DNA from: a virus
Length of the DNA: 34,511 nt
Reading direction: 5' to 3' (one strand)
Virus record (IMG/VR): IMGVR_UViG_3300005466_000193
Span: 1 to 34,511 of that record
The notes under the pieces are model-generated. The model did not search any database. It saw only the letters and a list, made by a program, of their open reading frames with translations, and was not told the DNA's origin. Each line of letters starts with the position of its first letter. The stretch's first letter is position 1. Of the stretch, positions 34,095 to 34,194 are shown piece by piece. Made by a program: the position numbers and the translations under genes.

Positions 34095-34194
34095 ATAAGG
34101 CGGGGTTCAAAAGTTGGTGATGTGATATGAAGTAATGATATTTTACTCTTTCGGGGGAAGCATTACATGTAACATAAATATCGCCCCGCCTTAT
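34095..34194 (+). ncRNA. Structured RNA G, next to the TROVE-like gene (Y-RNA-like candidate)
   Basis: 100 nt starting 4 nt after the stop codon. A perfect 11-bp closing stem (ATAAGGCGGGG at 34095-34105 with CCCCGCCTTAT at 34184-34194) is followed inward by a possible GATAT/ATATC helix and a GTAATG/CATTAC hairpin, leaving a single-stranded 5' bulge. No T-run follows, so it is not a terminator. In Deinococcus and other bacteria the Y RNA gene lies beside the Ro gene, and Y RNAs have paired ends with a bulged helix. This is the best candidate partner. Inference from structure and position. Confidence 0.6.

Follow-up and report, generated by a model that had tools for sequence, protein, structure and literature searches.

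A Ro60-like protein in a viral tRNA array and a family of compact Y-RNA-like RNAs as its candidate partners

The closest described systems are Ro60-type proteins and their Y RNAs. In Deinococcus, the Ro60-type protein Rsr and a Y RNA tether PNPase, as set out in the accessible text of PMC7790460, and Y RNAs or YrlA have already been reported from phages in the accessible parts of PMC7765460 and PMC12282133. Here we analysed the virus record IMGVR_UViG_3300005466_000193 from IMG/VR (positions 1 to 34,511, hereafter the window), in which a Ro60-like protein gene is followed by a hairpin (34095-34194) that an earlier note had proposed as the Y RNA of the encoded protein. Our results suggest that the locus probably encodes a phage Ro60-type ribonucleoprotein whose likeliest RNA partners are two predicted short RNAs upstream of the gene (32523-32593 and 31219-31282), not the hairpin. 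The two RNAs belong to a family, termed R1 here, that is defined by a terminal stem and an ACAGCAA motif. No RNA partner was found assigned to this type of Ro60-like gene, and to judge from sequence the R1-family RNAs look like the missing one. A phage Ro60 (9l5y) and phage Y RNAs were known beforehand; the ACAGCAA signature, the tie to the protein family DUF2828 and the compact RNA form are apparently new. A literature search returned no description of any of the three, and the main Y RNA papers may describe the family in part.

The Ro60-like gene (32618-34090, + strand) encodes 490 aa, and its product is predicted to adopt a Ro60 fold. The best match in the PDB to its AF2 (AlphaFold2) model (pLDDT 87.6, 34 sequences) is Ro60 1yvp, with a Z-score of 22.2 and a root-mean-square deviation of 3.9 over 399 residues, nearly the full length. 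The top ten matches are all Ro60/TROVE chains (Z 13-22), and the following ones, mostly lone vWA domains, score about 10 or less. The Ro60 of Thermus phage phiLo (9l5y) scores about 15 against the model and Deinococcus Rsr scores 13. The likeness to Ro60/Rsr covers both the helical part and the vWA domain, whereas the identity is only 11-17% and Pfam places the window protein in DUF2828 and DUF7788 (phrog_850, 'RNA-binding protein'). The Pfam search gave no TROVE match at E ≤ 1, only these two families and weak vWA matches. The earlier description of the gene as TROVE-like therefore holds for the predicted fold and fails for the Pfam family. Residues D290, S292, S294, T361 and D393 (window numbering), which correspond to the DxSxS, T and D positions of the vWA domain and which we take to be its metal-site residues, are invariant across the 34 sequences, so the metal site looks intact. 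A DUF2828-type Ro60-like gene is present in 665 of 50,697 phage records, frequently inside or near tRNA arrays; in bacterial genomes, a search with single-protein patterns found one relative.

The R1 family was first seen when noncoding flanks were scanned for long stems, and it recurs in several phages. The ends of each RNA are joined by a stem of 8-9 bp, ACAGCAA follows directly after the 5' strand, and the loop is variable. The 5' strand is of the UUAG(A/G)C type and the complementary strand ends in CUAG. A closing stem of at least 8 bp precedes ACAGCA in 93 of 353 cases, compared with 143 of 3804 for 25 random permutations of this 6-mer, one of which (AACAGC) overlaps the motif. For the covariance model, 69 first candidates were reduced to 52 aligned and 43 used compact members, none from the window, by dropping coding-region and badly registered rows. 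These 43 members contain 99 doubly changed pair cells versus 32.8 in shuffles, and the inner pairs vary on both sides. Since the members were chosen for pairing, this covariation is partly circular, and we place the weight on the tests described below.

The window carries two copies, both on the + strand. Copy 1 (32523-32593; stem and AACAGCAAU motif; R1 score 27.2 bits, E 3.1e-4; folding z -2.7) starts 9 nt after tRNA-Trp (CCA; 32440-32513, + strand) and ends 24 nt before the ATG of the Ro60-like gene. Copy 2 (31219-31282) has the stem UAGACACU/AGUGUCUA and the motif GACAGCAAU, and scores 42.6 bits (E 7e-8). In a scan of the window with filters off, the next best match after the two copies has an E-value of 3.6.

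Among 100 loci with the Ro60-like gene, 188 of the 189 R1 matches at E ≤ 10 lie on the strand of the gene. At E ≤ 0.01, 105 matches fall in 56 loci, and in 50 loci a match lies no more than 600 nt from the gene; loci that did not contribute to training yield such a match in 25 of 69 cases. The 100-locus counts and the stem counts include the duplicates L006/L007, L022/L064, L037/L038 and L071/L072. Twelve of 14 isolate phage genomes have R1 matches at E ≤ 0.1, and of their 32 matches 28 are found on the strand of the gene and no more than 3.2 kb from it; the exceptions are two matches in Munch, one in KVP40 (6.9 kb off) and a weak one in Los1. Five of the seven isolates outside the training set have R1 matches, three of them near the gene.

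The association also holds in the reverse direction. A plain DNA pattern of stem, motif and complement retrieved 22 viral contigs, some of which look like near-copies of one another, and 20 of the 22 encode the Ro60-like protein. Twelve do so within the stretch examined and eight of the remaining ten elsewhere in the contig, sometimes many kb off; the last two, in which the protein was not found, are fragments of 15.8 and 36 kb. Leaving out L106, L108 and L109, which had contributed to training, gives a count of 17 of 19. The controls comprised 23 tRNA-bearing contigs of at least 50 kb (of 80 listed) and the phages T4, SPO1, G and K; in the large contigs 150 first-look candidates were scored each, and misses are possible. 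Only 4 of these 27 controls encode the protein. R1 matches at E ≤ 0.05 were found in three controls, namely two of the four with the protein, both of which have a match no farther than 300 nt from the gene, and one (E 0.037) of the 23 without it.

A separate stem, AAGUUGAU/AUCAACUU with ACAGC, was observed 7-16 nt upstream of the Ro60-like gene in loci L024, L027, L030 (2451-2494), L044 (2420-2485) and L009 (1935-1987). Possibly, the protein regulates its own mRNA through this stem.

The long R1 members (85-135 nt) are similar in plan to YrlA RNAs (RF02553). A five-pair T arm with a UUCRANN loop is present in 19 of 42 long members, versus 0.02 expected after letter shuffling. In 13 of 18 distinct members with a T arm, as judged by script and by eye, the order is T arm, closed hairpin, D arm; according to the Rfam alignment, this permuted order is also that of YrlA. 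In the other five the T arm lies towards the 3' end, and two of these are tRNAs called by ARAGORN (tRNA-Ile in L047, tRNA-Gln in L060). The Rfam YrlA model matches L060 4751-4862 (E 2.5e-8), L014 1642-1755 (E 7.3e-7), L041 137-239 (E 7.7e-5), L062 4602-4714 (E 1.6e-4), L014 1309-1416 (E 1.1e-3), L062 4145-4271 (E 3.5e-3) and L001 4615-4723 (E 0.057); an eighth match, L014 208-308 (E 0.053), is counted here irrespective of its R1 motif status. YrlA and R1 thus share a Ro60-type protein companion and a two-part plan of end stem and module, and the long members also resemble YrlA in carrying a T arm, a closed acceptor hairpin and a D arm that are permuted in the same way. They differ in that the outer stem and ACAGCAA lie outside the YrlA consensus, that most R1 members, including both window copies, are about 50-75 nt long and lack the tRNA module, and that the R1-associated protein belongs to DUF2828 in Pfam and not to TROVE. 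Since all matches are under the cut-off and the outer stem differs, we describe the long members as YrlA-like in plan and do not file them as YrlA members. We also observed complete tRNA genes nested in stem and ACAGCA loops, at L047 4904-5024 (Ile) and L060 4066-4181 (Gln).

A second likeness is to the dictyostelid Class I RNAs (RF01414; Rfam consensus CCUUACAGCAA), which are described in the accessible text of PMC7919456 as 42-65 nt RNAs with a short stem joining the ends, a conserved motif by the 5' stem and a variable loop. R1 shares the end stem, the motif beside the 5' strand and the variable loop, whereas the known partner of Class I RNAs is an RRM protein and they are described as restricted to dictyostelids. 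The Rfam Dicty_Class_I_RNA model gives 22 bits on copy 2 and up to 26.9 bits on several phage R1 members; no phage or window match reaches the 41.5-bit cut-off. The same model also matches 7 of 14 control genomes, and T4, which has no R1 match, scores 24.3 bits. Homology is therefore not established, and the likeness is suggestive and unproven. It is tempting to speculate that stem and ACAGCAA mark an ancient Ro-bound RNA common to phages and dictyostelids, with Class I RNAs as its eukaryotic branch and YrlA as the minimal form plus a tRNA-mimicking module, a scenario that we consider quite unlikely.

In Listeria phage CKA15, three R1 members lie at 25,289-25,553 in a 395-nt unannotated gap between CKA15_056 and the Ro60-like CKA15_055, preceded by a promoter-like TTGACA-N17-TATCAT site. 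According to the accessible text of a transcriptome study of CKA15 (PMC12282133), three noncoding regions in the 2 kb upstream of CKA15_055 give rise to very abundant RNA, and the authors suggest that Y RNAs are encoded there. The gap with the three members would be one of few candidates for an abundant RNA. We considered the most transcribed region (26,236-26,727) as an R1 member and rejected it: it overlays a match to ROOL RNA in Listeria phage P100 (L012 474-1025; 86 bits versus a cut-off of 99.1), whose CKA15 counterpart is at about 26,195-26,746 of OR088597. The word ROOL is absent from the main text of the CKA15 paper. In addition, an unannotated stretch of CKA15 at L104 ~3720-4050, behind a promoter-like TTGACA-TATACT site and unmatched by R1, is possibly the third abundant RNA. 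Phage P100 carries a 'tRNA splicing ligase' gene near its Ro60-like gene.

Several points weigh against R1 RNAs as partners of the Ro60-like protein. Within the DNA examined, 44 of the 100 loci have no R1 match at E ≤ 0.01. Two of the 14 isolates are matchless, the matches in Munch and KVP40 lie away from the gene, and seven of the 14 isolates contributed training sequences. Two of the four protein-bearing control contigs have no R1 match. The YrlA matches are all under the Rfam cut-off (the best has 50.3 versus 69 bits) and rest on the tRNA-like module with the outer stem excluded, and both window copies lack that module, giving neither a YrlA nor a tRNA match. In CKA15, the most transcribed region corresponds to ROOL and not to R1, and the other two abundant regions come without coordinates in the accessible text of PMC12282133, so that we infer rather than observe R1 transcription there. 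The case for the pairing is built on the predicted fold of the gene product, the sequence signature of the RNAs, and their co-occurrence with the gene, on its strand and in its vicinity; from these we infer that the phage makes the RNAs, that the protein binds them and what the complex does.

The hairpin itself was largely described correctly. The stop codon of the Ro60-like gene ends at 34090, AATA follows, and from 34095 the strands 34095-34105 (AUAAGGCGGGG) and 34184-34194 (CCCCGCCUUAU) form 11 Watson-Crick pairs that close exactly 100 nt on the + strand around a 76-nt loop region; a G-U pair (U34106-G34183) lengthens the stem by one. When the 421 nt that follow the gene were dinucleotide-shuffled 500 times, no shuffle reached the strength of the closing helix (-26.9 kcal/mol), and the entire + strand has only two helices of this strength, the hairpin included. 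As the earlier note stated, the hairpin lies between the mRNA and tRNA-Gln (CTG; 34199-34274, + strand), which starts 4 nt past its end, and it is not a terminator because no T-run is present in the next 10 bases (ACATTGCTGG). The proposed second helix, GATAT/ATATC, is absent from both the minimum-energy and the centroid structures. While the 100-mer folds with a z of -2.9, its 76-nt interior folds at shuffle level (z -0.04).

The search for the same stem after the gene in other phages, proposed in the earlier note, covered 96 other loci in which the sequence extends 200 nt or more past the gene, allowing a stem start within 25 nt of the stop codon. Only one locus has a perfect stem of at least 11 bp; it differs in sequence and, spanning 55 nt, is shorter than the hairpin. 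The two closest relatives (49-50% protein identity), which are identical to each other over the stretch compared, lack the stem and have a different hairpin at that place; their R1-family RNA lies 166 nt ahead of the Ro60-like gene. A blastn search of the region against phages returned nothing beyond 55 nt matching in the part with tRNA-Trp, and the comparison loci thus include no close relative. The sole exact match to a 17-nt core of the hairpin sits in an apparently unrelated reading frame, in a stretch that has neither the stem nor the gene, and we rejected the hairpin as common to other phages. Rfam at curated cut-offs reported only tRNAs in 20 related loci.

Four explanations can be weighed, three for the hairpin and one for the R1 elements. 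That the hairpin serves the Ro60-like protein as its Y RNA, of a type restricted to this phage, is favoured by its place beside the gene, a long perfect stem far beyond chance, an unpaired stretch on the 5' side, the lack of a terminator, and outer pairs (UAAGGC/GCCUUA) that resemble some R1 stems, such as UAAGGC/GCCUUG in L032 2013-2072. However, the hairpin has no Rfam match, remained unmatched by the R1 model with filters off at E ≤ 10 (two other window sites were matched), and lacks both ACAGCAA and a tRNA-like module; its interior folds at chance level, only one of the 96 other loci has a stem there, and a different one, and similar stems occur away from the gene. The tRNA array contains three such long-stem elements on the + strand: element A (30654-30768; 12-bp perfect closing stem; z -4.2), element B (31116-31214; 15-bp closing stem, 2 nt after tRNA-Met; z -4.9) and element C (32136-32221; 11-bp perfect closing stem between tRNA-Tyr and tRNA-Pro; z -2.8). 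A stem of this kind is therefore not unique to the 3' side of the gene. We conclude that the hairpin is real and probably not the Y RNA of the protein, a role we rate as very unlikely; the expectation of a Y RNA beside the Ro gene stands insofar as Y-RNA-like RNAs adjoin the gene in many phages and in the window, with the hairpin not among them.

Likelier readings of the hairpin are an mRNA 3'-end element and a stable RNA of the array. As a 3'-end element, for which we see about an even chance, it would remain after tRNA-Gln processing as a stem blocking 3'-to-5' decay. Spacers of 4 nt separate it from the stop codon on one side and from tRNA-Gln on the other, its stem is very stable around an unstructured interior, and no terminator-like site lies behind it; a short hairpin would suffice, though, leaving the 76-nt loop unexplained, and elements A-C are away from gene ends. 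Alternatively, the hairpin and elements A-C could be stable tRNA-array RNAs with a role of their own, like T4 species 1 and 2 RNAs (rnaC and rnaD), which are stable, measure about 120-140 nt and likewise lie within a phage tRNA array. Four elements of 86-115 nt with closing stems of at least 11 bp share one array, the 2.1-kb stretch 30499-32617 has three helices of -20 kcal/mol or stronger versus 0.24 in shuffles (maximum two in 100 shuffles), and T4 rnaD lies 1 nt from tRNA-Arg. Yet no common sequence was seen in the four elements, elements A-C match no known family, and the T4 RNAs lack a long closing stem, which leaves this a tentative possibility. As for the R1 elements, they might not serve the protein as RNA partners but act as signals for processing or regulation in phage tRNA arrays, since they sit among tRNAs and some loops (L047, L060) enclose complete tRNAs. 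Against this, the 23 protein-less controls, which include 19 tRNA-bearing contigs of at least 50 kb, gave no match at E ≤ 0.01 and one at 0.037, and the protein is found in 20 of the 22 RNA-bearing contigs; we regard such signals as unlikely.

We then propose a model for the preferred reading, a Ro60-type ribonucleoprotein with R1 partners. The tRNA-array transcript would be cut at the tRNAs, and the short R1 RNAs would thereby be freed. If Ro60/Rsr and Y RNAs are a guide, the stem and ACAGCAA may form the protein-binding end, and the variable loop may be the part that recruits or mimics something. In the long members the loop would be a permuted tRNA module acting as a tRNA mimic; in the short ones, including both window copies, it holds nothing recognisable. 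During infection, the complex may take part in quality control of RNA or may protect or repair tRNAs; for phages, tRNA protection or surveillance is a natural guess. The most likely role of the hairpin would be to stabilise or mark the 3' end that the Ro60-like mRNA acquires when tRNA-Gln is removed.

Two further observations concern tRNA regions. Positions 31506-31584 of the window are tRNA-like, with an acceptor stem of 7-8 bp, a T arm and a CCA end; the stretch is unreported by ARAGORN or by Rfam at cut-off, and its anticodon loop looks irregular. A tRNA-bearing region of L089 (4466-4729) gave a group I intron match under the cut-off (39.9 bits, E 1e-6).

A defined RNA signature makes the binding partner of the Ro60-like protein directly testable in laboratory phages. 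With compact members that lack a tRNA module, the binding and effector ends of a Y-like RNA would be separated. In addition, the R1 family may give a name to some of the very abundant, unannotated RNAs of phages.
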